A stretch of DNA of 64,000 nt from Cytophagaceae bacterium. Its GTDB lineage: Bacteria > Bacteroidota > Bacteroidia > Cytophagales > Cytophagaceae. Each line of letters starts with the position of its first letter. Within the stretch, counting starts at the first letter, position 1. Below the pieces are notes generated by a model. That model made no database searches, had not been told where the DNA came from, and was given only the letters and a program-made list of their open reading frames with translations. Of the stretch, positions 264-56,449 are shown piece after piece. The translations under genes were made by a program, and so were the position numbers. Location of the stretch: contig JALONH010000001.1 of assembly GCA_025455005.1 (NCBI GenBank), positions 248,001 to 312,000 of the forward strand, written 5' to 3'.

Positions 264-2105
264 CTATTCAGGATGTAGTAAAAGAATTTTAAGTGTATAA
301 AAGGTGGTTTCGCATTTTATATTGATATAATAAAATCCACTGCTCCAGAGATGTGTTTGTACTTGAAGAGTTCCCCAAAAATTTCCTTTTTCAACTTCTT
401 TTCCTTCATTGGTATACAGGGTATAAGAATAAAACGTATTCGGCAGGCCTTCCAATATTATATAGTCTTGCGCAGGATTAGGATAAGCTCGAACCAAAGC
501 AGGAGAGGAGACGGCGAGTATTCTTAACGAAACCCAATGATTAGATGTCGTTTTTTCGATGAGTTGTATATAATTATAATAAGAAGGAATCGTTCCTGAG
601 TACGTTTGTATAGAAGAGGCATACAGAGGTAGAATGGAATCAACCGCATCGAATTGTATCCCATCAATGCTACCTAAAATATAATACCCCTCTATAGAAT
701 GTTCATGTAAAGTGCGAAACGTATACTGAATGCCAGTTGTATTTTTATTAGCTGAAAATTCGAGAAGAGTCAAGGGAAGTAAACACGTATTGTTTATTAT
801 TCCGAAGGGTACAGTAGTGCTGAACAACGTAGTACCGGATGCGCCTGCAGTAGCATTCCGATTGCCGTTAAGGGAAGGATCTAAAGCATTAGTAGAAAAG
901 CCCGGTAAACCACCGGTAGTTTGAATCGTTAATCCTACGGGTAATGTAGCAACAGATAAATAGACTACGCCTCCACTTCCGCCTCCTCCAGGTCCTAAGC
1001 TCCTATTAGGACTATTGGTATCGCCCCCCATCCCTCCGTTAGACTGTACAATCGTGTTCGTAAAGGTGTTACTTTGAAGTAGTATAGAGCCTCCACTACC
1101 CCCACCACCTGCTCCGTCTCCACCCCCATCGGGAGCAGCTTCGCCATTACCGGAGATTAAAAACCCATTTCCAATTATATTGTCCGCAATCAAGAGTATA
1201 ATACCTCCTCCATTACCTCCGCGAGTTCCTTGGCCATTATTCTGATGACCGCCACCACCACCGCCACCTAAAAACAATCGAGTAGGGATTTGGGTATTTA
1301 AAGCAATTCCCCCTTGTGCATTCGTTGCAGCATTATTACATCCATTAGATTGATTGCCACCTTGACCTCCGGTTCCCCATAGTCCACCACCGCCTCCACC
1401 TGCATTGTGGTTGTTACCGCCTCCGCCACCTATGGTATTTTTAGCTCTTCCCGAGGACTCATTTAAAGGTATAGAATAGATACCTTCCCCTTTTTGAGAT
1501 ACTAAGGTACTTGCTGGTAATGAAAAATTATTTAAAAAGAAACTGCAACTGACCGAAGGGTCATTCAAACTTGCATTTCCTCCCCTGAATCCTATACCAT
1601 CGGCTGCTATAGGTGCGTTTAACGTTATGGTTCCACTCGCCCTAATGGCTACAATACCACCGGTGGTTCCGTTCCAATTCGAACCGGTTAGGGTTCCATT
1701 AACGGAAACGTTAGTATATTCCGGAACACGAACTAATTGAACAGACCCACTAATAGTATAGGTTTTTAATAGGGCATGAACAAAATAAATATCGTTCCCG
1801 GTGATAGCTAATATGCGTTGTAATTCGTAATTACCCGCATCATTTATTGAAGTCAATGATCCATATGCAGCAGACGTTACGGTAGTGTTAATGGACGCCC
1901 CTTTCATTTGAATGAGCACCACCAAATCTCCTACAGCATAACCCGAAGCGGAACTAACCGTTACTCTATGGCAAGCATAATCTATTGCAGTAACGTCTAT
2001 ATACGTATTCACTACACCGGATATTTGACCGAAACAAGTATAACCCCAAAGAGTTACCCCTATACAGCAATATCGTATAAATGAGAAGAAGAAACGTATA
2101 TTCAT
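264..2105 (-). CDS. Glycine-rich secreted protein with T9SS type A sorting domain
   Basis: About 613 residues. I chose the ATG at 2105 rather than one 24 bases upstream because a signal peptide starts there (MNIRFFFSFIRYCC then hydrophobic, ending near CFGQ). The middle third holds repeated GGGGGG blocks separated by short N/Q/S/T stretches and by beta-strand-like segments such as GGIILLIADNI and GGSILLQSN. The last 75 or so residues have the YPNPAQDY motif, strands and a final Tyr/Lys-rich strand of a T9SS C-terminal domain, so secretion through T9SS is inferred. The N-terminal part has no family I recognise. It probably coats or adheres to the cell surface. It is divergent from the lipoprotein gene at 2224. 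Confidence 0.82.
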   Translation of the reverse strand: MNIRFFFSFIRYCCIGVTLWGYTCFGQISGVVNTYIDVTAIDYACHRVTVSSASGYAVGDLVVLIQMKGASINTTVTSAAYGSLTSINDAGNYELQRILAITGNDIYFVHALLKTYTISGSVQLVRVPEYTNVSVNGTLTGSNWNGTTGGIVAIRASGTITLNAPIAADGIGFRGGNASLNDPSVSCSFFLNNFSLPASTLVSQKGEGIYSIPLNESSGRAKNTIGGGGGNNHNAGGGGGGLWGTGGQGGNQSNGCNNAATNAQGGIALNTQIPTRLFLGGGGGGGHQNNGQGTRGGNGGGIILLIADNIIGNGFLISGNGEAAPDGGGDGAGGGGSGGSILLQSNTFTNTIVQSNGGMGGDTNSPNRSLGPGGGGSGGVVYLSVATLPVGLTIQTTGGLPGFSTNALDPSLNGNRNATAGASGTTLFSTTVPFGIINNTCLLPLTLLEFSANKNTTGIQYTFRTLHEHSIEGYYILGSIDGIQFDAVDSILPLYASSIQTYSGTIPSYYNYIQLIEKTTSNHWVSLRILAVSSPALVRAYPNPAQDYIILEGLPNTFYSYTLYTNEGKEVEKGNFWGTLQVQTHLWSSGFYYINIKCETTFYTLKILLLHPE

Positions 2106-2223
2106 TACTTTGTATAGACTTACGTACAAGTTAATACGTTAAAGTTACGGTATTGTAACTAAAATAAAGGTATTATTAATTTACTATATAATTTACTACA
2201 TTTAATATTCATTTTAATATAAT

Positions 2224-4317: not shown

Positions 4318-5579
4318 TACTTACTAGAATTACTTTAGGTCTATTTATATTCTGTGTTGCTTCTGTTCCAGTTGTTTTAGGACAATATGAGGTGGATCGA
4401 CCGGAGATGTTTTTATTGGAAAGAAAAAATGCATCATTCAGTACTTCAAGTGAATACAAACACTTTGTTTCCTCATGGGCCGGAGGAGATATAAACAGTT
4501 CTTTTATTACTAATACTTTCTTTACCGAATTTTTATACAAACGCTCTTTTATTGATGCGGATTTAATCGATGATCAATTAGATAGGGCAGGTCCGTCGAA
4601 TAGATTAGGTTCATGCATACAAGGAGGACTTTATGGTTTCCTTCAAACGGCTAAGGGAAAATGGGAAGCCGGCATTACCTATAAAGATTTTTATAGTGGT
4701 AATTTTAGCAAAGACGCCTTTACCTTAGTCTTTAAGGGCAATGCATCATATGCCGGATCGTCCGCTTCATTGGAGCCCTTATCGATACTTGGTCTTACGA
4801 CACAAAATATTTTCATTGGGTATAGAAAATCGATAGGAAAAGCTGCTACTGCTGAAATCGGTTGTAGATTCGGCGTTTCCAGAGCATCTAATATACTTAA
4901 AGTTAAAATGGAACAAGGCGCTTTGTTTACAGAACAAAATGGCGCGTACCTAGAATTAAGTGGAGATATACAAGCATTCTATTCCAACGCTTCTTCCAAA
5001 GCGGGATTAGGAGCCTTTACCGATTTATATTTTCAAACGAAGTGGAAGAAGTGGAACATATCGGCTGAAATTCGGGATATAGGTTTTATTCGTTCCGGGC
5101 AATTGACCTCTTACAATGAAAGTGGAACTTTTCGATATGAAGGGATTGCGGTAGACAATATTTTTGGTGAAGAAGGCTTTAAGCTTACCGGTATTACAAT
5201 AGATACGATTTTGCAAAATTTTGGAATTCAACCGAAAATAGAAAACAAACTAATATTAATGCCCTCTACGTTTCATTTAGGAGGCTCAAAAGATTTTGGT
5301 AAAAAGTGGACATCATTCTTTGGAGTTAAGATGATAGCAGCACCGGGTTATATGCCGAAGCTCTATACTCGTTGGGCTTACTATTTCTCCAAAAGCCTAG
5401 CTATTCAACCTGGCCTATCTTTCGGTGGATTCGGCAATCTTGATGTAGAATTAGGTGTGGCGAAATCCTTTGCAGATAAATATTTTATTTCCACACAATT
5501 GTTTTGGATAGAATACCTGGTAGCTCCTTCTATTACATCAGGTCAGGGTATGTCGGTAGCATTAAGTATGCGATGGTAA
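4314..5579 (+). CDS. Outer-membrane beta-barrel protein, DUF5723-like
   Basis: 421 residues with a cleavable signal (ends near VVLGQ) and many amphipathic beta strands ending in an aromatic residue (terminal SMRW), as expected of an outer-membrane barrel. The segment around AEIRDIGFI and overall size recall the DUF5723 group of Bacteroidota barrels; that assignment is from memory of the family and is tentative. The start overlaps the stop of the upstream lipoprotein gene by four bases, and its own stop overlaps the start of the radical SAM gene. No function is known to me. Confidence 0.75.
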   Translation: MILTRITLGLFIFCVASVPVVLGQYEVDRPEMFLLERKNASFSTSSEYKHFVSSWAGGDINSSFITNTFFTEFLYKRSFIDADLIDDQLDRAGPSNRLGSCIQGGLYGFLQTAKGKWEAGITYKDFYSGNFSKDAFTLVFKGNASYAGSSASLEPLSILGLTTQNIFIGYRKSIGKAATAEIGCRFGVSRASNILKVKMEQGALFTEQNGAYLELSGDIQAFYSNASSKAGLGAFTDLYFQTKWKKWNISAEIRDIGFIRSGQLTSYNESGTFRYEGIAVDNIFGEEGFKLTGITIDTILQNFGIQPKIENKLILMPSTFHLGGSKDFGKKWTSFFGVKMIAAPGYMPKLYTRWAYYFSKSLAIQPGLSFGGFGNLDVELGVAKSFADKYFISTQLFWIEYLVAPSITSGQGMSVALSMRW

Positions 5580-6598
5580 TGTGGGTATCAAAAGATACAT
5601 GGAATATACTTTCTCATTTTACTTTACGAAGAAGTATCAATGCTATCTTGGTAGTCGTTAGTTTTTATATAGCAAAATGGTTTAAGCTTACCTTTCATCC
5701 GGCTATGCCAATAGCGATCTCCATTGAGCCTACAACATCGTGTAATCTGCGTTGTCCGGAGTGTCCAAGTGGCTTACGCTCTTTTACTCGTCCTACCGGA
5801 ATGTTGGAATTGGGAAATTTCAAACAATGTATCGATACCATTGCAAAAGATATTTGGTATATCCTTTTTTATTTTCAAGGCGAACCTTATTTGAATCCAT
5901 CCTTTTTAGAACAAGTGGCATATGCCAAAAAAAGAAATCTATACACCGCAACGTCTACCAATGCACATTATTTAACATCGGAAATGGCAAAGAAGACAGT
6001 GGAATCCGGTTTGGACCGAATCATTATATCTATTGACGGAGTTTCTCAAGATACCTATGAACAGTATCGGGTAGGAGGAAGTCTTTCAAAGGTTATAGAT
6101 GGAACAAAACAACTCTTGTATTGGAAAAAAGAACTACAGTCCTCTACCCCACATATCATATTTCAATTTTTAGTAGTAGCTCCCAATGAAAAAGATATTC
6201 CGGCTGTAATAGAATTAGGCTCTGCACTAGGTGTAGATGAGGTGCGATTAAAAACGGCACAAATCTATCAATATGAACAAGGTTCTCCCTTGATTCCTAC
6301 TCAAGAAAAGTATTCGAGATACAAACGCATGTCGGATGGTTCCTATCGGTTAAAGAATGCTTTAGATAATCAGTGTTGGAAAATGTGGCACCAATGTGTT
6401 ATTACTTGGGATGGCAAAGTAGTGCCTTGTTGTTTTGACAAGGATGCACACTATAGTATGGGGAATGTTTTTACCCATTCTTTGTATTCGATTTGGAACA
6501 ATACTTCTTATCGAGATTTCAGAGCGCAATTGTTAACCAGTAGAAGTAGTATTGATATGTGTCGTAATTGTACAGAAGGAACTAAAATCTGGGCGTAA
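5579..6598 (+). CDS. Radical SAM/SPASM domain protein
   Basis: 339 residues from the ATG overlapping the previous stop (TAATG); another ATG lies six bases upstream. The iron-sulfur motif TSCNLRCPEC (Cys 55, 59 and 62) is the CX3CX2C signature that binds the [4Fe-4S] cluster reducing S-adenosylmethionine. The C-terminal part has Cys-containing motifs around CWKMWHQC, VVPCCFD and MCRNC, typical of a SPASM auxiliary-cluster domain. SPASM enzymes often modify peptides, but related ones act on other substrates, and no precursor peptide is visible nearby. A short hydrophobic helix precedes the catalytic domain, so membrane association is possible. It is followed after four bases by a methyltransferase. 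Confidence 0.9.
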   Translation: MWVSKDTWNILSHFTLRRSINAILVVVSFYIAKWFKLTFHPAMPIAISIEPTTSCNLRCPECPSGLRSFTRPTGMLELGNFKQCIDTIAKDIWYILFYFQGEPYLNPSFLEQVAYAKKRNLYTATSTNAHYLTSEMAKKTVESGLDRIIISIDGVSQDTYEQYRVGGSLSKVIDGTKQLLYWKKELQSSTPHIIFQFLVVAPNEKDIPAVIELGSALGVDEVRLKTAQIYQYEQGSPLIPTQEKYSRYKRMSDGSYRLKNALDNQCWKMWHQCVITWDGKVVPCCFDKDAHYSMGNVFTHSLYSIWNNTSYRDFRAQLLTSRSSIDMCRNCTEGTKIWA

Positions 6599-7729: not shown

Positions 7730-10700
7730 ATGAAACGTTTTTTACAGATTGGAATTGCAGTTTTGTTCTTATTTCTCCAAATGCAACAAACCTATGCACA
7801 AGGCAGCGAAATCACTTTCGGGAAATGGAGTGTAGGGGCCAATTGGGGAGGTGCTTGGCAAAAATCCGATGTGCGAGCCCGCATGGGTACTGGTTGGGGG
7901 ATGACCTTGGAGCGTGCCATCATACAAAATAATACCAGTCTTTTTGGATTTTCTTTAAGAGGTCGATACCTACGAACCTGGATGTATGGACAAGATATTC
8001 AACGAAGCACCGGCATTCTTAACAATCCGGCATTGAATGGAACGTACAATCCTTTGTTAGATTATTCCGGCCTTGGGTACGTATTTCAAAATCATTATAC
8101 CAAAACGGATGAGTGGTCTTTAGAAGGTATGCTTATTTTGAATAGGCTTAGAGCTCGGTCTCATTTTAAATTTTATGCATTCGGAGGAATAGGAACAACC
8201 GGTTATACAACTCGGATTGATCAATTGGATGGTATAGGAAATACTTATAATTATAATCTAGTGAATACGGGCATTAGCAATAGTTTTACTCGAAATGATT
8301 TAGCCGCTTTGAGGGATTATAATTTTGAATCGTATGCTGAAAACAAACGATTACCACATTGGGTCTTTTCTTCTGCTTTCGGACTAGGTATGGGTATTCG
8401 GATGGGTACGAGAACATATATGACCTTTGAGCATAAAGTAACGTTTACCAAAACAGATTTATTAGATGGCAATCGTTGGGATAATCTAAATCAACCTACA
8501 TTGAAAAATGATCTCTATCATTACACTAGTCTTGGGATTAGTGTAGGTATAGGAAAAGGATGGGGAAGAGTGAGAGGTGCTACCACCGTTCAACAAAGCA
8601 CTGTAACGACACCGGAATATGTACGTGCGCCGGAAGTAAGCATTATCTATCCAAGAACGAATCCGGCTCAAGTCACTAATTGCAGAGTAGAAATTCGCGC
8701 ATTAATAAAAAATGTAACAGGTAAAGAACAAATCTATGTTTACCTGGATAATACCTTGCTGGATGACAATGCCTACTATTACAATAAATCGACACAAGAA
8801 TTAGTAATACAGACGACGGTAGCCTCAATGTTGGAAGTAGAGATTGAAGCCCGAAATAGTGCCGGTGAGGACTCTAAGAAACTAACGATTCAATGTATAG
8901 AGCCACCACCACCCCCTGTTGTTCTTCCAGTTCCGGTGATAGAAGTACTCTCTCAAAGTACTACAGATTGTTTTGTCAATGCTATGTTGAGAATACAACA
9001 TGTCAATAGCATAACAGATGTTACCGTCCTGGCAAATGGAGCTACAGTACCATCCTCCCGTTATAGCTTTAACGCGGCTAGTCAACAACTAACGTTAAAC
9101 TTTCCTATTCAAGCGACAACGAATGTAGTCATTCGAGCACAAAACGCTTCGGGAACAAACACCCAAACGTTAACCTTTGCCTGTGCACCAGTTCCTAGAA
9201 CTATTCCCACTCCAACACCGGTGCCTACCCCTGTTCCGGTTCCAACACCGGTACCCACTCCTGTCCCTGTACCCACTCCGGCTCCCAGAAGTGCTCCGTC
9301 AATACGAATTGTTACACCTGCTACAAATTCAACTTTGCCGAATTGCCAAATCAATTTGGTAGCCGTGTCAACCGGAATAACAGATAAAAATCAACTAACC
9401 ATTTATGATAATCGTCTACCTATTGACCCATCCAATTATACATTCAATGCGGCAACAGGAGATATCGTTCTGAATTATACGCTGTCACCAGGAATTCATA
9501 AACTTTCTATAACTGTTCAAAATAGCGTAAGTCTTCGAACGGCCTCAGTTGATGTACAGTGTGCAGCCTCTACTCCACCGCCAATTGGCGCTTTACCTGT
9601 CATACGGTTATTAGTTCCAGCAACGTCTCCCTATACTAGTCCATCTTGTAGTTACACGGTAGTAGTAACGATTGAAAATATTCAATCGGCTACTCAAGTA
9701 CTCGTTCGAAATAATACAGTACCTGTGGCCTCCGGTGATATTATCTATAACCCTTCAGACAAAACGGTGCGGTTCCCGGTGAGTATACAGACAACTTCAA
9801 CCATTCAGATTGAAGCAGTAAATTCCTTAGGTAAAGCGACTCAAACCATACAATTAACTTGTAATCCTGCTATTGCACCTGATATTACGATGGTGTCTCC
9901 TTCAAATGGAATAGTAGCGACTACTGATTGTAGATCAACAATAATAGCTCGAGTTAGCGGAATCACATCGATACAACAAATTCAGTTTATTTTAAATGGA
10001 ACTAAATATACAGCTACAGATGCTACGCTCAGTACGACCGGTGAACTTACCGTTCCGATTCGTTTTACCGGAACGTCTACATTTGATATAATCATCAATA
10101 CAGCAGGTGGCTATGTCAAACGCTCCATACAATTATTGTGTCAACAAGTGAATCCTCCTCAAATAGTACTACTTCAACCTACATCTAGTCCGTGGATTTC
10201 TACTACTTGTAATGAGACCATAACAGCAACGCTGCGTTATGTTACCTCATCTGCTCAAATACAAGTACTAGTAGATGGGAATATTTTACCCTCTACTCAA
10301 TGGCGCTTTGATACTGCTACTACGAAACTAACTATTCCCATTCGGTTTACCGGTTCTAAAATAGTCCAAATACAAGCGTCTACTTCCGGAGGTTCTGATG
10401 TTAAAACGATTGCATTGGAATGTAAACCATTAATACCTCCGACCTTGGTATTGGTTAGTCCAACTGCATCCCCATACATATCTAAGTCTTGCACGGAAGT
10501 AATACAACTAAAAACTATACACGTAGATTCTATCCAACAAATCTCCGTCTTTAAGAACAATACCCAGATAACTATGGGGTCTCTTGCATGGGATAGAACA
10601 ACCGGTTTGTTGTCTTTCCCTGTAGAGTTTACAGGAACAGTAACGTACACCGTAAAAGTAAAAACAGCAGCCGGTTCAACATCGACACCTATACAGTTAA

Positions 10701-13381
10701 CCTGTAAGCCTACTGTAATTCCTACAGTTACGCTGCTACATCCTACTACTACATCCGTCAGTTCCAGAAACTGTAGTGATACTGTAAAGGCCATTGTTCG
10801 AAATGTACTCTATAACCGGGAAATAGAAATCACAGTAGGATCTACCACTTTAGATTCCACTCAATACACCTTCACATCGTCTACCGGTAAAATCGATCTA
10901 CCTATTCAGTACACCGGAACTACTTCCGTACACATTAAAGTACGTACAAATGACGGAAGTGACGTAAAAAGTATAGCCTACACTTGTATTCCTCCAACGC
11001 CTCCAACGGTAACGATACTTTCACCAATGGCACCAAGTGTAACTTCTGAATCGTGTGCAGAACAATTTGTAGTTCAATTGACAAATATCAACTCGCTGAA
11101 TGATGTTACAGTATGGGCTAATCAAACAGCCATACCTGCCACTGCATTATCGTTTCAACCTACTACCGGAGAATTACGATTCACCACTACGTTCACTCAG
11201 CCCACAACGATAACCATTCAGGTCCGAAATCAAGATGGAGAAGCACAAGCCAGTCGACAATTAATTTGTGCTCCTATTTTGATACCTGAAATTCAATTTA
11301 TAACACCGAGCACCACAGCCTCTACCTCTACTACCTGTAAAGAAGAAGTAGCCTTGTATGTTCGAAATATTTCTTCTAAAGATAGTGTATCCGTTTGGGT
11401 GAATAATCAACCTCTATCATCGGATAGCATTACATATAACGAAGCAACGCATATCGTTAAATTTACTTTATCGATTATGGGTACTACTACTATCAAAGTA
11501 GTCGCTAGAAATAAAACGAAGAAAATAGAAAAGAGTATTAGTATTCAATGTACTCCAATTCCAAATCCGGAGTTAACCTGGATATTCCCAACGGGAAACG
11601 GTATGGCACTTCCCGGTTGTACTACACGTGTACGATTACAAGTAAGACATATACAAACACTGCAACAACTTCAAGTACAAGTTGGGAACACCTATATCCA
11701 AAATCAAAACTTGACATTCGCTAATTCAGTATTAGAATTTCCTGTACAGATCGAAGGAGAAACGCTAATAAAAGTTACCGCAACGAATACAAGTGGACAA
11801 GTTGTAGCCGAGAGAACGGTTACGTGTACGCCACAGGTATCTATACAAACAGGGCCAACGCGAAATGATTGTTTAGGAAGAAATGAGCCTACCTTTACCA
11901 ATTGCTCGACGTGTCATACAACAGTCGATGCTGCAGCAACCCAAATTACCGTTGCAGAAGGTGAAAAAGTATGTATAGCATCGAACTTCAACGGTAGCAT
12001 AGATATGAATGGAGGACAATTGGTTATTTGTTCTAATGCTACCATTAACAATATTAACTTTAATAAAGGTCAAATTATTGTGAATGGAGAGGCGACATTT
12101 AGTAATATGAATATGAATAATCCGAGCTCCGATTTCCGGAACTTTGGAACAGTTCATTTCGGCAATATTACATTTAATGGACGATTTGAAAATCATGGTC
12201 AAGCGTCTGTTTCCGGTGATTTTAATATAAATGCTAATGCGATTTTTAGAAATACCGGAACGATGACGGTTAATAGTAGTTTTAATAATAACAATATCGG
12301 ATGTAATTCCGGAGTCTTAACGGTAAACGGAAATTTCAAAATTAATGGCTCTGCTCAGTTTACGAATGCTTGTAAAATAACTGTCACCGGAGATTTTCAT
12401 ATTGATCATATGTTGGATCATACCGGAACCATTCAAGTAGGTAACGCGACATTTGTAAATGGTAATGGTATATTAACAATGAATGGAGGATCTAAATGGA
12501 TTACCAAAGACATTACCGTAAATGGTAGTATTCAAAGTTCAAGTACGACATGTACCGCACTCTCTATATCCGGAAGAACGACCATAAATGGAAATGGGAA
12601 AATTAGAGGGGTAGTGGGGATATGCGATATCAATGGCATTGAGGCTAACTTAGGTACCATAGAATCTACGGTCACGACAGATTGTTCTTGTAATCTTTCC
12701 AACACATCTGAATGTGGAAACAACAGTGATTTAGATGACAAAATTACGATTTGTCATATCCCACCCGGTAATACCGGAAATCCACAAACGATAACGGTTG
12801 GACGTACTGCGTTGAAAGCGCACTTGGATCATGGCGATCACATTGGTCCATGTAATGGGAATGATTTACTAAAGCATACAGTACCGGCGGTGATACAACA
12901 AATTCCACAAGTTATTCAACAACAGCCGCAGCCGCAGCAGCCGCAGCAACCGCAACAACCGCAGCAGCAACCGCAACAACAACCGACTACTCCATCGACG
13001 GATAATGAGTATATATGGATTTGTCATTATCCACCGGGGAATACGGGTAACCCACAATCCATCCGTATACCAAGAAGTGCTTTACAAGCACATTTAAATC
13101 ATGGAGATAAAATAGGTGGATGTACACAAGAAGATCTAGAAAGTGGTCGTGTGCAACCCCAACAGCCACAGAAGTCCCAACCTCAACCACAAGAACCGAG
13201 TAGACCACAAGTGCCTGTTCCTACACCACAGCAGGAGCCTTCTCCACAACAGCCAAGACAACAGGAGCAACCGCAACCTGTTCCTGCACCACAACAGCAG
13301 ACACAACCCAGTCAACCGGTTACACCACCGTCAACTCCACAGCCTTCTACCGGAACAGCACCTAGGGAGAGCACAAGGTAA
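7730..13381 (+). CDS. Giant multidomain surface protein: barrel-like N-terminus, 11 Cys-bounded repeats, beta-helix, PQ-rich tail
   Basis: 1883 residues from the ATG at 7730, chosen because the signal peptide MKRFLQIGIAVLF...TYAQ begins there. About residues 25-290 look like an outer-membrane barrel or OmpA-type N-terminal domain. Then come eleven repeats of about 88 residues, each starting P-x-hydrophobic and having two Cys, one near residue 17 and one at the end. A Pro-Val-Thr linker separates repeats 2 and 3. Next is a region of short NGN/NGG strands resembling a right-handed beta-helix, then two CHxPPGNTGNPQ modules separated by Gln/Pro-rich linkers. The open frame stops at 13381 in the middle of what would be a third module (see the entry at 13378). 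No T9SS sorting domain is visible. Adhesin or wall-scaffold function is an inference. Confidence 0.85.
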   Translation: MKRFLQIGIAVLFLFLQMQQTYAQGSEITFGKWSVGANWGGAWQKSDVRARMGTGWGMTLERAIIQNNTSLFGFSLRGRYLRTWMYGQDIQRSTGILNNPALNGTYNPLLDYSGLGYVFQNHYTKTDEWSLEGMLILNRLRARSHFKFYAFGGIGTTGYTTRIDQLDGIGNTYNYNLVNTGISNSFTRNDLAALRDYNFESYAENKRLPHWVFSSAFGLGMGIRMGTRTYMTFEHKVTFTKTDLLDGNRWDNLNQPTLKNDLYHYTSLGISVGIGKGWGRVRGATTVQQSTVTTPEYVRAPEVSIIYPRTNPAQVTNCRVEIRALIKNVTGKEQIYVYLDNTLLDDNAYYYNKSTQELVIQTTVASMLEVEIEARNSAGEDSKKLTIQCIEPPPPPVVLPVPVIEVLSQSTTDCFVNAMLRIQHVNSITDVTVLANGATVPSSRYSFNAASQQLTLNFPIQATTNVVIRAQNASGTNTQTLTFACAPVPRTIPTPTPVPTPVPVPTPVPTPVPVPTPAPRSAPSIRIVTPATNSTLPNCQINLVAVSTGITDKNQLTIYDNRLPIDPSNYTFNAATGDIVLNYTLSPGIHKLSITVQNSVSLRTASVDVQCAASTPPPIGALPVIRLLVPATSPYTSPSCSYTVVVTIENIQSATQVLVRNNTVPVASGDIIYNPSDKTVRFPVSIQTTSTIQIEAVNSLGKATQTIQLTCNPAIAPDITMVSPSNGIVATTDCRSTIIARVSGITSIQQIQFILNGTKYTATDATLSTTGELTVPIRFTGTSTFDIIINTAGGYVKRSIQLLCQQVNPPQIVLLQPTSSPWISTTCNETITATLRYVTSSAQIQVLVDGNILPSTQWRFDTATTKLTIPIRFTGSKIVQIQASTSGGSDVKTIALECKPLIPPTLVLVSPTASPYISKSCTEVIQLKTIHVDSIQQISVFKNNTQITMGSLAWDRTTGLLSFPVEFTGTVTYTVKVKTAAGSTSTPIQLTCKPTVIPTVTLLHPTTTSVSSRNCSDTVKAIVRNVLYNREIEITVGSTTLDSTQYTFTSSTGKIDLPIQYTGTTSVHIKVRTNDGSDVKSIAYTCIPPTPPTVTILSPMAPSVTSESCAEQFVVQLTNINSLNDVTVWANQTAIPATALSFQPTTGELRFTTTFTQPTTITIQVRNQDGEAQASRQLICAPILIPEIQFITPSTTASTSTTCKEEVALYVRNISSKDSVSVWVNNQPLSSDSITYNEATHIVKFTLSIMGTTTIKVVARNKTKKIEKSISIQCTPIPNPELTWIFPTGNGMALPGCTTRVRLQVRHIQTLQQLQVQVGNTYIQNQNLTFANSVLEFPVQIEGETLIKVTATNTSGQVVAERTVTCTPQVSIQTGPTRNDCLGRNEPTFTNCSTCHTTVDAAATQITVAEGEKVCIASNFNGSIDMNGGQLVICSNATINNINFNKGQIIVNGEATFSNMNMNNPSSDFRNFGTVHFGNITFNGRFENHGQASVSGDFNINANAIFRNTGTMTVNSSFNNNNIGCNSGVLTVNGNFKINGSAQFTNACKITVTGDFHIDHMLDHTGTIQVGNATFVNGNGILTMNGGSKWITKDITVNGSIQSSSTTCTALSISGRTTINGNGKIRGVVGICDINGIEANLGTIESTVTTDCSCNLSNTSECGNNSDLDDKITICHIPPGNTGNPQTITVGRTALKAHLDHGDHIGPCNGNDLLKHTVPAVIQQIPQVIQQQPQPQQPQQPQQPQQQPQQQPTTPSTDNEYIWICHYPPGNTGNPQSIRIPRSALQAHLNHGDKIGGCTQEDLESGRVQPQQPQKSQPQPQEPSRPQVPVPTPQQEPSPQQPRQQEQPQPVPAPQQQTQPSQPVTPPSTPQPSTGTAPRESTR
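8630..11827 (+). repeat. Eleven tandem ~265-bp coding repeats (Ig-like, two Cys each)
   Basis: The eleven repeat units inside the giant protein begin at a P-x-I/V-x-hydrophobic strand and end at a Cys, usually written as (L/T)xC before the next Pro. Recurrent internal landmarks are a Cys about 17 residues in, a xVxVxxNxxx strand, a Y/F-x-F/Y-xxxTgxL turn and a xIxVxAxNxxG strand. The units are diverged at DNA level, so this is an old expansion. A run of PTPVP codons (9206-9286) interrupts units 2 and 3. The paired Cys probably form one disulfide per unit. Confidence 0.8.
11870..12690 (+). other. Region encoding a beta-helix-like domain
   Basis: Within the giant protein, about 270 residues alternate short hydrophobic strands with N-G, G-N and N-N turns (for example NFNGSIDMNGGQLVICSN and FNINANAIFRNTGTMTV). 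This periodicity is what one expects of a parallel beta-helix or polymer-forming fold. It starts after a Cys-rich CSTCHTTV segment and ends at CSCNLSN. No catalytic residues are apparent. Confidence 0.6.
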
Positions 13382-13487
13382 CGATTTGTCATTTTCCCCC
13401 GGGAACACCGGAAATCCACAAACCATAACAGTGGGAGCGAGTGCGGTGCCCGCGCATTTAAAACATGGCGATCCTATAGGACCTTGT
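12743..13487 (+). repeat. Three copies of a CHxPPGNTGNPQ...AHLxHGDxxGxC module
   Basis: Copies at 12743-12853, 13019-13123 and 13378-13487. Each is about 37 residues, opening with (I)CHxPPGNTGNPQ and closing with AHLxHGDxIGxC, so each unit has two Cys and three His at fixed positions. Gln/Pro-rich linkers separate them. Modules of this pattern occur in other secreted bacterial proteins, but I know no assigned function. The fixed Cys/His set suggests a disulfide and perhaps metal binding. The third copy is split over reading frames. Confidence 0.8.
12918..12984 (+). repeat. CAG/CCG-rich tandem codons encoding a poly-PQ linker
   Basis: About 67 bases of repeated cagcag, ccgcag and ccgcaa units give alternating Gln and Pro between modules 1 and 2 of the giant protein. 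Similar but less regular PQ-rich DNA follows at 13155-13330. Such low-complexity DNA can change length by slippage. Confidence 0.75.
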
Positions 13488-13613
13488 ACAGCTAAAGATT
13501 TAGAACGAGCGAAAACCAATCCCTCTGGTAATTCTAGCAACCCACAGAACACAACCGATCCGCCTAGTACTCCTAACGGAAATAATAACAATCAAGGCTC
13601 TAATGGTCGTTAA
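13378..13613 (+). pseudogene. Out-of-frame C-terminal continuation of the giant protein
   Basis: After the upstream frame stops at 13381, the sequence still encodes the third CHxPPGNTGNPQ module, but in two other frames: VTICHFPPG in one frame (13378-13401), then NTGNPQTITVGASAV...GDPIGPC in another (from 13404), continuing to a TAA at 13611. Each change equals loss of one base, at a short A run near 13375 and at the GGG of cccccggg (13401-13403). Restoring both would extend the protein by about 77 residues ending in an Asn/Ser/Pro-rich tail. Sequencing error at homopolymers and true decay are both possible. Confidence 0.75.
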
Positions 13614-49249: not shown

Positions 49250-52200
49250 ATGAAACGTATGAAACAATTCTTACTCGTTTTCATCACTATTTTTTCTATA
49301 GTGTTTGCTACATCAGCGGCAACTTTTACAGTGACAAGCACGGCTGATGCTGGTGCAGGGACGTTACGCCAAGCGATTTCAAATGTAGCTAATACTACAG
49401 GTGGACCACATAATATTGTATTTGCGATTCCGGCTGGAAGCGTAATTACAATTTCAAGTTCCTTATCCATCTATAACGATCCTGACTTTAACGGATTAAC
49501 GATTAATGGATTTATAGATGCTGTTGCAGGTCCGGATGTAATTATAAGAGGAGGATTAAATGCATGTAATAATTCTGTAAATGGGTTTCATATTACTGCA
49601 CCAATTACAGGGCTAAGGTTTTATGGCCTTGTATTTCAAAGCTTGAGTAGAGGAATATTTTATGATGTTAATAACACTGGAACGGTATTAAGTTCTGAAG
49701 TTAAAGGTTGTTATTTTGGTACTACAGTGGATGGTACTGCTATTGGTGGTACGATTTGTAGAGACGGTATTAGCATTAGAGGAGCGAATACAATTCAAAT
49801 TGGAGGGTTTAGTACCACATTATCTAATGGTGCTGTGACTGCTTCCAATAATTCGGAGAGATGCATCTTTGGTGGAGTGGCTTGGGTTAGTGGTGAAAAT
49901 GAAGACGCTGCCATTCATTTGGGGGATGAGAATTCGTCATCTACTAATATCTCTATAATAAATAACTATGTTGGAGTTAATGTAAATGGTAATGTAAAAC
50001 TAAGTATAGGTGACCCTGCACTTAATTGGGCACGCTTTAAACACGGCATTCGAGTTAGAAACTCAACTAATACTTTAGTAGATAGGAATGTGATCTCAGG
50101 GGCAGTAGGTTGTGGAATGTATATTGATGGAAATTCTTCTAGTTTAAGAATTAAAGGTAATAAAATAGGTACGGATGCAACAGGGACTTTGGCTTATAAC
50201 TCTGCTGTACCTGCAAACTCTTTTGGTAATATGGCTACGGGTATTTATGCTGAAAGTTCTTCTTCGATTATTATAGGTTACGACGGAGGTATTTTAGCAA
50301 ATGAGCGTAATATCATTTCTGGTAACGGGGGTGCATTCCATACTTGGGGCGGTTGTGATAGATCGTGGGATTTCAACAATCAAATGGGAGTTTATTTTAA
50401 TAGTGTAACAAATTCAGTCATTCGTGGTAACTATGTAGGTACGGATGTAACGGGAATGACCAGTACTTCAGTTTCCGGTTTTATGTATAACCGTGCTGGG
50501 GGGATTAAATTGGTTGATGGTTGCTCTGGGAATATAATAGGAGGTAATGCTCCCGAACACATCAATGTCGTTTCAGGTCATGGTTTATTTTGGAATCTTA
50601 TTATTCCTATAACCAACCCTTGCGGTCAAGGTGGTTTCACAGCTCTTAATGGTATAGAAGGTGGTAATGGTATTATTTTACAATATGCAACTTGTACTAA
50701 CAATACCGTTTCTGGGAATTACATTGGCTTAGCTTCTGATGGTCTATCCGCATTAGGCAATTTTAACGCTGGTATTGATATTCAAGGTGCGAATGGAAAT
50801 ATTATTGGAGGTACATCGACAGCATTAAGAAATTATATTGGAGCTAACAAATGGGGGATTATGATGCAAGAAGATTTCTTAAATGGTAATTCTGCACAGT
50901 CAAATACAATATTAGGTAACTGGATTGGTTTAAACATAAACTCGGTTGCAGTAGGAAACGGTGTTACGTCATTAACAGAAGGTGGTGGTATTTGTTTGCA
51001 AATGGGCTCTAGAAATAATATCATTGGTACTACAGCTACTGGTGGTGGAAATGTAATTTCAGGTAATAAAACAGGAATTGCAATCAGAAGTAATGAACGG
51101 TCGGGTACGAATACAGGTCCTTCTCGCTTAAATACTATCCAAAGTAATATCATAGGTATGAATCCCACTTTGACTGCAGCTATTCCAAATACCTCTACTA
51201 CAGGTGGTTATGGATATGGTGTGCAAATTGAATTAGGGTCTACTTCTTCAACAACAACTTTTCCTCATGGAAACACTATTGGAGGATCTACTGTTGCTCA
51301 TCGAAACATCATAGCAGGTAACCAAAAATCGGGTATCTATATAAGTCATAGCACAGCTCTCATTTCCTCTAATCCTGGAAACCAAATTATTGGTAATTTT
51401 ATAGGTACTGCATCCGGTACAAATGATTTTGGGAATAATGAACAAGGTGTTGAAATAATAAACGTATCCGGCAATCCTTCAATTAGCGGTACTGGAACCA
51501 TTATTAGAGGTAACGTTATTTCAGGAAATACTCAAAATGGTATTGCATTAAATAATTCAGATGCAAATGTTATCCAAACCAATGTTATTGGGGGAACAGC
51601 TGCGGCTACTCCGGCAGCTTTGGCTAACGGTCAAAACGGTATTCAACTGACAAACGGCTCATCTAGTAATGTTATCGGTGGGGTAGCCGGAACACTAGCC
51701 CTTCCTACAGAAGCGAATTTTATAGGATTTAACGGAAGCAATGGGGTGTCTATAGCCGGAGCTACTTCCAATTTGAACTCCATTCACAGAAACTCTTTCC
51801 GGTGTAATACTTTAAGAGGTATCGAATTGAATGGCTCAGGAAACAACGCTTATGCGGCTCCTACTATTACGGGAAATTCTACTTCTATTACAGTAAATAC
51901 ACTAGTCCCAGGTTCAACCATTGAATTGTATTCAACGGATGGTTGTGCAACTTGTCCGGCTAATCCTGCTACTCGTTTACAAGGTTTAACATTAGTGGCT
52001 GTAGGGCCTTCTCCTTTAGCCTTTACTCCGGTTAATGGAGTGCTATATGTAGCGATCGCTCACGAAGCTAATACGACTACAGCACATAATTCTTCCGAAT
52101 TTTCACAGTGTTATTCTCTATGTACAGCTCCTACGCCTTCTATAAGTGGTGTTACATTATTGTGTGAAAATGTTACCGGTAGGGTATTTAGTACGCCAAA

Positions 52201-55200
52201 TGTTCCAAATAACACTTATATATGGACCGTACCTTCTGGTGTAACGATTACAAGCGGAGCCGGAACTAATTCCATTACTGTTTCTATTGGTAATTTCCCA
52301 TTAGCCAGCAATACTATTACTGTAGAAGAACGTTTTGAAGGTAGTACTACTTGTAGTAATACAGCAACAGCTACGCTTACCATTCGCGATTCACCGGTTC
52401 TTCCGGTCGTTTCCGGACCAACATTAATTTGTGGAGCAACTTCTACAACAGTATCTTCCTCAACTTCTCAACCAACAGGAACTACTGGGTCATGGACAAG
52501 AATAAGTGCTACTGCGGCTACCATAGCTACTCCTTCAGCAGCCTCTACTGTTGTAAATAACTTAACCGTCGGACAAACGCATACCTTCCGATATACCGTT
52601 AGTAGCGATGCGTCTACTTGTCCTTCTCAATCACAAGATATTTCTATAGTAAGTAGAAATTTACCAACTCCTGATATCACCGGAGTCAGTTTACTTTGTG
52701 AAAACGTTACTGGTAGAGTATTTACAACAGCAAATAATCCAGGTAGTAATTATAATTGGGTAGTACCTACAGGAGTGACCATAACTTCTGGGCAAGGCAC
52801 TAATTCCATCACTGTTTCGGTAGGCGCATTCCCTATAACAGGGGATGAAATAAGGGTTACTGAATCGGCCGGAGCAAGTTGTGACGGGTCAGACATTCTT
52901 ACTTTAACGGTTCGAGATTCGCCGATAGTTCCGGTATTAAACGCTCCGGCATTTTTGTGCGGAACTACTTCATCAACGGTGGCAGCTACTAATACTCAAC
53001 CAATCGGAACTAGTGGGTCATGGACAAGAATAAGTGCAACAGCTGCTACTATTGCAACTCCATCACAAGCCTCTACAGTAGTTAATAATTTAACTACTGG
53101 TCAAACGCATACCTTCCGTTATACTGTTAGTAGTGATGCTACCACTTGCCCTTCTCAGTCTCAAGATATTTCTATAGTTAGTCGAGCTAATCCATCCACA
53201 GCAGTGGCTATTGTTCCTACTGAGGGATGTTCCCCTACCACTCTTAATCTGACAGGTAATACTTTACTGTCCGGCGAAACGGGGCTTTGGTCTGTTACCT
53301 CCTCTACAGCACCTGCCTTGCCGGTTATTACTTCAGCTAGTAGCAGCTCTACAACAGCCACAAGTCTTATTCCAGGCCATACGTATAATTTTACTTGGAC
53401 GGTTAGTGTTCAAGATTGTGGCTCTACTTCAGATGTAAAATCTTTTAGAAATGTTGCGAACCCTACAGCTTCAAATGCTGGGCCAACACAAGAAGTGTGT
53501 AGTACAACCATCAACCTTTCAGGTAATGTACCTACTATTGGTGTGGGATCATGGTCTTTAGTTTCCGGTCCTGTAGGTCCTGTAATTGCGGATATTAATT
53601 CTCCAAATTCTAGTGTTATAAATTTAGTTGCTGGAAATGATTATACATTTAGATGGACTATTGCCAACGCCCCATGTGCGCCTAGTTTGAGCGATGTTAT
53701 TATACGCACGGATGTTCAACCATTAGCTTCCAACGCAGGTCCGGATGTATTTGGGTGTAAGATAAGTTCTGCTAACTTAAATGCTGTTGTACCATCTGTA
53801 GGTACCGCATTATGGAGAGTAGTTTCAGGTTCCGGTATTACATTAAACGATCCCACAAATAATAATGCAACCGTAAATGGGATTGTTACAGGTAATGAAT
53901 ATCGTTTGGTATGGGAAACATCTAGTACCTTAGGTAGATGTGAAGCAACCAGAGACACTGTAATCGTCCGTTCAGATAATGATCCTTCCAATGTATCTGC
54001 TGGTTCGGATATTGCCCTTTGTAATAGTTCTGTAGCCACTGTTACTGCTACCGGAAGTGCACCTGGTTTATGGACTGTTAAGTCCGGTAGTTCTGCGGAT
54101 ATCGCTAATCCATTAAACAACTCTACCTCAGTTACTATAAGTGGAAATTCTGCTACGTTGGTTTGGTCTGTAGGAAATGGTTCTTGTACTGCTTCTGCTG
54201 AAGTAACCATCTCGCGCACCGATTTACCTACTCCGGCTATTCTAGGTGATTTATCTCACTGTGCTTCTACTACGAATATTGAGTTAACGGCAACGCCGGA
54301 TGTTACCACTTCTGGTGGTAGTTATGTATGGGATATCATTACAGGCAGCGGCGACGCCTCCATTACAAGTTCAACTACAACCAATCCTATTAATGTCTCC
54401 TCCGGTTTAATCGGAGGTATTGTTCGCGTACGTATCACACAAGGAGGTTGTATAAACGTTGCTACGCAAGCGGCAATTACAATAGACTCTGATAATACGA
54501 TTGCCAATGCCGGTCCGGATTTGACGACTTGTTTAGACAGTGTTCGATTGGTAGGTAATACACCTCTTTTTGGTTCTCCGTCATGGTCTGTCATTAATGA
54601 ACCGTCTATCGTGTTTACACCTACGGCTAATAACGATACTACCTTTGCTGAAACGTTAGTATATGGTACTGTTTATCGATTTGTTTACACCATCTCCGGT
54701 GCTTGTGGGCTTCCATCTAGAGATACAGTAGTGGTTAATGCCGGCTTAACAGGATTTGTGTTGGCTGATGTGAATGGTCCTTCGGATACGTTATGCTCCA
54801 CTACTGCACGCACGTTGAGTGCAGTAGTTACTGGTGGATCTGGAGACTTTACATACGTATGGACTGGTTCTAATGGTTTTAGAACGACCACTAATAGCCC
54901 AATTTTATCTGTGGTTCCAAATGCTAATGTTGTAACGTATCAAGTATATGTTATAGACAATGCCAATACCGGCTGTCAAACCGGAACGGATGCAACTATC
55001 GTGTACGCAGTAGATAAACAAAACTTAGAAATAATGAACTTGGTTACTCCAAATAACGATGGTAAAAACGATATATTCATTGTTCGAGATAAAGTAACCT
55101 TGCAAGATTTAATTCCACAAGGTTCTTATTTAGAAGTTTACAACCGTTGGGGTGATCGTGTCTTCAAAGCAAATGACTATAAAAATAATTGGAATTGTGC

Positions 55201-55300
55201 CGAGTTATCTGATGGTATGTACTTCTACTTATTACAAACAGAATGCGGAAACCAGGAATACAAAGGTTGGGTTCACATCTTAGGAAACACAAACAACTAA
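49250..55300 (+). CDS. Giant T9SS-secreted beta-helix adhesin with type B sorting domain
   Basis: 2016 residues. A signal peptide is followed by ATFTVTSTADAGAGTLRQAI, the opening of secreted choice-of-anchor beta-helix proteins. Residues about 60-860 have repeated turns of the kind NTIGGS, NxIxGNxIG and NIISGN, typical of a right-handed parallel beta-helix. Residues about 960-1925 are a chain of PKD/Ig-like domains. The last 90 residues, from NLVTPNNDGKNDIF to NRWGDRVFKA and the final YKGWVHI strand, are a gliding-motility-associated (type B) C-terminal domain. It should be exported by T9SS and stay surface-attached. Adhesion or gliding is inferred. Confidence 0.9.
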   Translation: MKRMKQFLLVFITIFSIVFATSAATFTVTSTADAGAGTLRQAISNVANTTGGPHNIVFAIPAGSVITISSSLSIYNDPDFNGLTINGFIDAVAGPDVIIRGGLNACNNSVNGFHITAPITGLRFYGLVFQSLSRGIFYDVNNTGTVLSSEVKGCYFGTTVDGTAIGGTICRDGISIRGANTIQIGGFSTTLSNGAVTASNNSERCIFGGVAWVSGENEDAAIHLGDENSSSTNISIINNYVGVNVNGNVKLSIGDPALNWARFKHGIRVRNSTNTLVDRNVISGAVGCGMYIDGNSSSLRIKGNKIGTDATGTLAYNSAVPANSFGNMATGIYAESSSSIIIGYDGGILANERNIISGNGGAFHTWGGCDRSWDFNNQMGVYFNSVTNSVIRGNYVGTDVTGMTSTSVSGFMYNRAGGIKLVDGCSGNIIGGNAPEHINVVSGHGLFWNLIIPITNPCGQGGFTALNGIEGGNGIILQYATCTNNTVSGNYIGLASDGLSALGNFNAGIDIQGANGNIIGGTSTALRNYIGANKWGIMMQEDFLNGNSAQSNTILGNWIGLNINSVAVGNGVTSLTEGGGICLQMGSRNNIIGTTATGGGNVISGNKTGIAIRSNERSGTNTGPSRLNTIQSNIIGMNPTLTAAIPNTSTTGGYGYGVQIELGSTSSTTTFPHGNTIGGSTVAHRNIIAGNQKSGIYISHSTALISSNPGNQIIGNFIGTASGTNDFGNNEQGVEIINVSGNPSISGTGTIIRGNVISGNTQNGIALNNSDANVIQTNVIGGTAAATPAALANGQNGIQLTNGSSSNVIGGVAGTLALPTEANFIGFNGSNGVSIAGATSNLNSIHRNSFRCNTLRGIELNGSGNNAYAAPTITGNSTSITVNTLVPGSTIELYSTDGCATCPANPATRLQGLTLVAVGPSPLAFTPVNGVLYVAIAHEANTTTAHNSSEFSQCYSLCTAPTPSISGVTLLCENVTGRVFSTPNVPNNTYIWTVPSGVTITSGAGTNSITVSIGNFPLASNTITVEERFEGSTTCSNTATATLTIRDSPVLPVVSGPTLICGATSTTVSSSTSQPTGTTGSWTRISATAATIATPSAASTVVNNLTVGQTHTFRYTVSSDASTCPSQSQDISIVSRNLPTPDITGVSLLCENVTGRVFTTANNPGSNYNWVVPTGVTITSGQGTNSITVSVGAFPITGDEIRVTESAGASCDGSDILTLTVRDSPIVPVLNAPAFLCGTTSSTVAATNTQPIGTSGSWTRISATAATIATPSQASTVVNNLTTGQTHTFRYTVSSDATTCPSQSQDISIVSRANPSTAVAIVPTEGCSPTTLNLTGNTLLSGETGLWSVTSSTAPALPVITSASSSSTTATSLIPGHTYNFTWTVSVQDCGSTSDVKSFRNVANPTASNAGPTQEVCSTTINLSGNVPTIGVGSWSLVSGPVGPVIADINSPNSSVINLVAGNDYTFRWTIANAPCAPSLSDVIIRTDVQPLASNAGPDVFGCKISSANLNAVVPSVGTALWRVVSGSGITLNDPTNNNATVNGIVTGNEYRLVWETSSTLGRCEATRDTVIVRSDNDPSNVSAGSDIALCNSSVATVTATGSAPGLWTVKSGSSADIANPLNNSTSVTISGNSATLVWSVGNGSCTASAEVTISRTDLPTPAILGDLSHCASTTNIELTATPDVTTSGGSYVWDIITGSGDASITSSTTTNPINVSSGLIGGIVRVRITQGGCINVATQAAITIDSDNTIANAGPDLTTCLDSVRLVGNTPLFGSPSWSVINEPSIVFTPTANNDTTFAETLVYGTVYRFVYTISGACGLPSRDTVVVNAGLTGFVLADVNGPSDTLCSTTARTLSAVVTGGSGDFTYVWTGSNGFRTTTNSPILSVVPNANVVTYQVYVIDNANTGCQTGTDATIVYAVDKQNLEIMNLVTPNNDGKNDIFIVRDKVTLQDLIPQGSYLEVYNRWGDRVFKANDYKNNWNCAELSDGMYFYLLQTECGNQEYKGWVHILGNTNN
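52133..53185 (+). repeat. Two ~520-bp tandem repeats within the adhesin gene
   Basis: Units 52133-52657 and 52667-53185. Each encodes TP.I.GV.LLCENVTGRVF, then GVTITSG, then GSWTRISATAATIATPS and the near-identical block ending SQSQDISIVSR. The 3' half is the most conserved, with whole blocks of codons nearly the same. A recent duplication is indicated, because later PKD units are far more diverged. Confidence 0.8.
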
Positions 55301-55579: not shown

Positions 55580-56449
55580 ATGAAAAGAATTTTACTTTCT
55601 TTATCCGCTTCATTTTTATTTCAATGGATGTCTATGGCTCAGGTAAACGTAGACCTTAGTACCGTAACCATTGAAACTTTTCCAAATCCAAGTACAAGAG
55701 TAAGTGCTACTGTTGTAAGTGGAGAGCTAAGAATCAACTTTACTTCTCAAAATTTCTGGGGGGATGATTTGAAGATAGTGTTTGCAAATCCGATAAATAT
55801 GTCCGGTGTAACCTCTCCGTCTATTTCCTATGATGCGGCAGTAAGTGCAACAAATGGATTGTCTTTTGCTGGAACAGGAACTCAATGCAACAGTGCATCG
55901 TTAAACTTTATACCTCTTGGTATATCAGTAATCGATTCTGATAATGATTATTCTTCCAGTTCAGTCAGTAGCGGTATTTTTGACCAAGCGTTCTCAGCAT
56001 TTACAAACGCAGTAACCTTGGGTGGAGCTAACGTAAATTATGCGAGTATTACAGGTATTTCTATTAAACCATCTAGTTTCACTACACCAAGTGGTGTGGA
56101 TTGTGTACCTTCTACTGTCTCCGGAACTATTATTATTCGTAATCTAGTAGTACCGGGAACAGCAACCTCTATTTTATCCGCTGCTTCCAAGGTAGGGTCA
56201 TTTAATGTTTTCCCTAATCCTGTTACAACTGGAGTAAACGCTACGATTGAAGCCAGTGCTGTATCTTCTGCTTCTTCTTTACAAGTAATGGTGTATGACT
56301 TAACAGGTAAAATGGTACAAACTTCATCTATTTCTTCTGCAAGTATAACGGCACCCATTAACACCTCTTCATTAGCAAAAGGTAGTTATATCGTAAAATT
56401 AATGATAGATGGAGAAGCAGCAAAATCTTCTCTTCTCATAGTTCAATAA
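55580..56449 (+). CDS. Small T9SS type A sorting-domain protein
   Basis: 289 residues with a signal peptide ending MSMAQ. The middle 180 residues are Ser/Thr/Asn-rich with aromatic beta strands and no known motif. The last 75, FNVFPNPVTTGVNATIE to the GSYIVKLMIDGE strand and final SSLLIVQ, form a type A sorting domain. So it is a T9SS cargo, perhaps a sugar-binding jelly-roll protein. It follows the giant adhesin gene after a terminator and a 230-bp AT-rich gap, so probably has its own promoter. Confidence 0.85.
   Translation: MKRILLSLSASFLFQWMSMAQVNVDLSTVTIETFPNPSTRVSATVVSGELRINFTSQNFWGDDLKIVFANPINMSGVTSPSISYDAAVSATNGLSFAGTGTQCNSASLNFIPLGISVIDSDNDYSSSSVSSGIFDQAFSAFTNAVTLGGANVNYASITGISIKPSSFTTPSGVDCVPSTVSGTIIIRNLVVPGTATSILSAASKVGSFNVFPNPVTTGVNATIEASAVSSASSLQVMVYDLTGKMVQTSSISSASITAPINTSSLAKGSYIVKLMIDGEAAKSSLLIVQ

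Follow-up and report, generated by a model that had tools for sequence, protein, structure and literature searches.

The inverse autotransporters (intimin, invasin and YeeJ; type Ve) are built in the order signal peptide, barrel and Ig-like rod, the barrel of intimin having 12 strands. Passengers of type V systems contain few Cys residues, which lie close together (PMC8151025). Proteins of the OmpA/OprF kind, whose Bacteroidota members carry a TSP3 linker and a PF00691 domain after an eight-stranded barrel, expose four external loops and hold the C-terminal domain in the periplasm (PMC7371106). PorG (DUF6089), an outer-membrane barrel of the T9SS, consists of the barrel alone. CHU_3220 of C. 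hutchinsonii, a large protein of cellulose degradation, measures 198.9 kDa and is a T9SS cargo with a type B CTD (PMC5891637, PMC8564354).

In this work, we analysed a gene of a Cytophaga-like bacterium from a window of 64,000 nucleotides (the whole stretch of DNA under study), whose product, here called the rod protein, resembles each of these systems in part. With OmpA/OprF it shares a homologous N-terminal eight-stranded barrel of the same loop and turn pattern, but it has an Ig-like rod, a beta-helix-like segment and a Cys/His tail in place of PF00691 and is more than three times longer. Profile searches place its barrel in the PorG superfamily, although far below the PorG cut-off. Its domain order is that of the type Ve proteins; however, its barrel is unrelated and has 8 strands rather than 12, there is no LysM, the Cys pairs are 70 residues apart and the export route of the rod is putative. 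Neither the rod protein nor its orthologues matched any Pfam model of an intimin-type barrel at E<=1. As with CHU_3220, this is a very large envelope protein of the same bacterial family.

Reading frame and domain order

The reading frame runs on the forward strand from the ATG at 7730 to the stop codon at 13379-13381, and encodes 1883 amino acids (204 kDa); the initial annotation had taken 7730-13613 as one open frame. A Sec signal peptide (residues 1-23, 7730-7798) precedes a predicted cleavage site between QTYA and QG, so that the mature protein would begin with Gln24; this fits the Bacteroidetes Q-rule, by which Gln follows the signal cleavage site (PMC10653852). The barrel follows (residues 24-274, 7799-8551), then eleven Cys-bounded Ig-like repeats, R1-R11 (residues 301-1367, 8630-11830), with a Pro-rich hinge between R2 and R3 (residues 487-522, 9188-9295), and an N/G-rich region with several Cys (residues about 1381-1662, 11870-12715), whose fold is predicted to be beta-helix-like. 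The tail comprises Cys/His module 1 (CHIPPGNTGNPQ...AHLDHGDHIGPC, 12740-12853), a Gln/Pro-rich linker (12854-13009), Cys/His module 2 (13010-13123) and a second Gln/Pro-rich linker that extends to the stop codon (13124-13378). All these features lie on the forward strand; the signal peptide, hinge and linkers were read from the sequence, and the modules were located with a Cys/His profile.

As proposed earlier, a beta-helix-like region and Gln/Pro linkers are both present. As to the three Cys/His modules of the initial annotation, two are in frame, and the third is downstream of the stop and out of frame. Here a three-frame view revealed a forward-strand remnant (13384-13613) made up of module 3 and a C-terminal tail, in which the module (about 13384-13487) is split over two other frames, first VTICHFPPG and then SPGNTGNPQTITV...HLKHGDPIGPC, and in the shifted frame past the stop it matches the Cys/His profile at E 5e-15. 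Two single-base frame shifts, about 20-30 bases apart and both adjoining short G or C runs, cut this module off from the gene; either assembly errors or real, recent decay may account for them, and no second genome of this genus was found.

No type A or type B T9SS sorting domain was matched at E<=1 by Pfam or NCBIfam models, whether in the in-frame protein or in its shifted end, in agreement with the earlier reading. NCBIfam matches to acyl-CoA synthetase and TonB lie in stretches rich in Pro and Gln and were put down to composition, and a sequence search of solved structures with the whole protein gave no match. No family model or paper describing the domain order was found, in line with the initial annotation, which knew it from no described family. 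The order is real, and the protein is a very large one, undescribed in the libraries searched.

Barrel homology and topology

The barrel-like, possibly OmpA-like N-terminus proposed in the initial annotation is borne out by the orthologues, whose barrels match PF19573 DUF6089 at 2.6e-7 and PF13505 OMP_b-brl at 6.7e-5. The barrel of the window protein itself matches the PorG model NF052316 at 8.4e-5 with 22.4 bits, below the cut-off of 130 bits, and a sequence search against solved structures gave chance matches only. When 19 barrels are aligned, long and variable stretches follow strands 1, 3, 5 and 7 (9-19, 26-56, 45-62 and 13-29 residues, respectively), and short ones follow strands 2, 4 and 6 (2-8, 6-10 and 4). 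Four long loops and three short turns imply eight strands, the two ends of the barrel both lying with the turns on the periplasmic side. By sequence comparison, this N-terminal part of ~270 residues belongs to the outer-membrane barrels of the OmpA/PorG kind.

A search of 395 sampled genomes of the phylum with barrel profile A2 identified relatives outside the family, these being proteins of 535-614 amino acids from other Bacteroidota that matched along the full barrel, over its positions 8-261, with E values down to 6e-41. The closest of them carry a peptidoglycan-binding OmpA domain at the place where the rod begins in the window protein: PF00691 was found in 9 of the 10 barrel relatives scanned, in 8 of these above the curated cut-off, and also in a more distant relative from the same order (L060). 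The rod protein itself had no PF00691 match at E<=1, and no known peptidoglycan-binding domain was found in its rod or tail. In a tree of the barrels, in which some inner supports are low, the barrels with an Ig rod form one group, sister to OmpA-type barrels, while other OmpA-type barrels and PorG fall outside. Since the Ig-rod barrels are nested among those of the OmpA type, a single domain swap suffices by parsimony, and the OmpA domain was apparently replaced by the rod once.

Ig-like repeats and location of the rod

The count of eleven two-Cys repeats was confirmed exactly by a repeat profile search, with 22 Cys in total. The repeats are about 90 amino acids long and all eleven were found by one profile, each at E 1e-19 to 1e-27, an array far beyond chance. 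Between the two Cys of a pair there are 70 residues in 8 of the 11 repeats and 68-71 in the others. Because of matches to Big_7 (PF17957), weak in the window protein and strong in its relatives, the repeats are taken as Ig-like. Among 98 aligned repeats from 15 sequences, both Cys are present in 82, both absent in 16 and a single one in 0, a distribution that sorts by clade and thus represents few independent events; one disulfide per repeat is probably formed.

The repeats of the window protein correspond position by position to those of C. hutchinsonii or C. aurantiaca, with a mean score of 125 or 128 against 101 or 103 expected (5000 permutations, none as high as observed). The repeats of the G001 protein also number 11, although homogenisation has left them 54% identical to one another. 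Exactly 11 repeats occur in four proteins of the family and in one Saprospiraceae-like protein; counts elsewhere are 8, 9 and 12+1, with 4 in one Cytophaga MAG, which weakens the idea of a strict 'ruler' of 11 repeats and leaves a fixed rod length as a suggestion only.

The initial annotation had reasoned that an OmpA-like anchor would put an extended rod on the cell surface; both ends of an OmpA-type barrel, however, lie in the periplasm. In a barrel whose strands are even in number and whose two ends lie with the turns, the C-terminal part should begin in the periplasm, and since relatives of the barrel hold a periplasmic OmpA domain at the position of the rod, the rod most likely starts and stays there. 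We infer a periplasmic location, together with disulfides and a rod shape, and lean slightly towards an outer-membrane anchored periplasmic rod as the nature of this protein. It would be exported by Sec, and the BAM machinery would insert the N-terminal eight-stranded barrel so that its four loops face outward and its two ends inward. Beyond the last barrel strand, the eleven Ig-like domains would form a stiff rod, hinged at one Pro-rich point, that reaches into the periplasm and is tipped by the beta-helix and then by flexible tails of small Cys/His modules. The rod would stand in for the peptidoglycan-binding OmpA domain of the ancestral protein, and its role is expected to lie in envelope architecture: it would act as a spacer or tie between outer membrane and cell wall, or keep modules that bind metal or glycan some way off; the binding partner is a guess.

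Length counts against the periplasmic rod. An Ig domain is about 4 nm long, and eleven would measure an estimated 45 nm, which exceeds the usual width of the periplasm, so that the rod could fit only by bending or by running along the wall. That length would suit a stalk on the cell surface, and Ig rods that end in modules are a typical feature of adhesins; an adhesin whose barrel acts as the anchor and whose rod is carried outside by a further route, as in intimin and invasin, is conceivable although rather unlikely. The tail agrees with it in two respects, as its modules are found on T9SS-secreted proteins and its Cys/His copy number varies from 2 to 10, like that of exposed tails. Nonetheless, the OmpA domain of the barrel relatives lies in the periplasm at the same place, eight strands are too narrow for a passenger, and neither a T9SS CTD nor a match to an intimin-type barrel model was found. 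To reach the outside, the rod would need threading through an eight-stranded barrel together with its eleven disulfide-type loops; 22 Cys in pairs 70 residues apart are unlike type V passengers and argue against threading in the style of autotransporters. The more specific proposal that an OmpA-type eight-stranded barrel itself displays an eleven-domain, disulfide-locked rod on the surface without the T9SS, as a new kind of self-presenting adhesin in Bacteroidota with an undescribed Cys/His (possibly metal-binding) module as its tip, appears improbable.

Tail modules, distribution and gene neighbourhood

The beta-helix-like segment is 40-48% identical to its orthologues (alignment A3) and had no Pfam or PDB sequence match. 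Giant proteins of the family contain it too, one of them with SprB and weak RHS matches. The Cys/His module, with invariant C, H, H, H and C around HGD, had no Pfam, NCBIfam or PDB match. A search of 296 Bacteroidota genomes at E<=1e-5 detected it in 20, where it precedes T9SS tails or forms part of lipoprotein-like or short pilin-like proteins. Among the module-bearing proteins is a conserved one of ~465 amino acids from one family of the phylum (L064, L066, L068, L069, L071 and L072), with a pilin-like N-terminus (MGGKAxxLLVLGFS) and one module near it. From these contexts, the module is a mobile unit in its own right, carried by exported proteins of Bacteroidota; that its Cys/His pattern forms a metal site is a guess. 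The modules or the beta-helix-like segment are also found on the T9SS-secreted L016 and on L073, L080, L083 and L086, judged to be secreted likewise by their tails, and both occur on giants of the SprB/RHS type; such company counts against the predicted periplasmic location.

The barrel of the rod protein is present in 7 of the 19 genomes of the taxonomic family, C. aurantiaca DSM 3654 among them, and the domain order, which the initial annotation had proposed to look for in homologues, is shared in large part or in full by orthologues in six other genomes of the family; several of the orthologues are truncated at contig edges. One of these genomes we take to be that of C. hutchinsonii ATCC 33406, where the number of Cys/His modules rises from the 2 of the window protein to 10. 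Its orthologue was considered as CHU_3220 and rejected, having 233.9 kDa, no CTD and a position about 24 kb beyond porU; counted from porU (CHU_3237), that distance should place the orthologue near CHU_325x. No paper naming a C. hutchinsonii gene number near CHU_325x was found in our literature search. Relatives with barrel and Ig repeats come from Microscillaceae, Saprospiraceae and Flavobacteriales, and the forms of the latter two are shorter, with neither Cys pairs, beta-helix nor modules in their visible part.

Tail composition varies among orthologues: the linkers are Gln/Pro-, Pro/Thr/Val- or Lys/Glu-rich, and G001, G006 and G008 have an extra domain between modules. Such variation would be expected of a generic structural or adhesive mosaic, its modules shuffling freely and with no conserved role, as would the Cytophaga MAG (L042, 9959-12508) in which four Ig repeats are followed by Cys/His modules with no beta-helix before the contig ends, where misassembly is possible. 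Against this reading, which we regard as distinctly improbable, stand the position-by-position orthology of the repeats and the synteny conserved in three relatives. Separately, an undescribed domain of ~165 amino acids (NNGSVVPSSCFTASVKVLGCALK...) was observed near Cys/His modules in three orthologues (L025/L041, L026/L045 and L008).

The conserved upstream genes encode two unassigned proteins, a radical SAM protein and a methyltransferase. An operon role was discarded, as these genes look unrelated, a gap of 270 bp separates them from the rod gene and synteny is limited to three relatives. The radical SAM/SPASM protein (5504-6598, forward strand) is conserved in this upstream position in Cytophaga and is most similar to a tungsten-cofactor oxidoreductase maturase, well below cut-off. 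Elsewhere in the window, a 2016-amino acid protein (49250-55300, forward strand) combines PKD-like domains with a CHU_C type B T9SS signal; a 289-amino acid protein with a type A T9SS tail comes next, at 55580.

An AgmC-like gliding protein (NF047640, 9.6e-66) with a type A T9SS tail (264-2129, reverse strand), the weak PorG similarity of the barrel and the reported contact of PorG with the PorK/N ring (PMC12704123) could together point to a component or partner of the T9SS/gliding machinery, that is, a PorG-like barrel fused to a periplasmic scaffold contacting that ring. This is highly unlikely: a true PorG lies elsewhere in the genome (C2:57703, 174 bits), no conserved T9SS gene was seen among the neighbours, and the rod protein is patchy, whereas the T9SS is general.

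Taken together, our results show that the common OmpA anchor has exchanged the domain that binds the cell wall for a long Ig rod; the exchange apparently took place once and left descendants in three Bacteroidota orders. The Cys/His module, found on many exported proteins, merits recognition as a separate family. A periplasmic rod, which we slightly favour, would make an unusually long spacer or tether of the envelope and could be tested in C. hutchinsonii, which is genetically tractable; a surface rod would imply a new route of export past an eight-stranded barrel.
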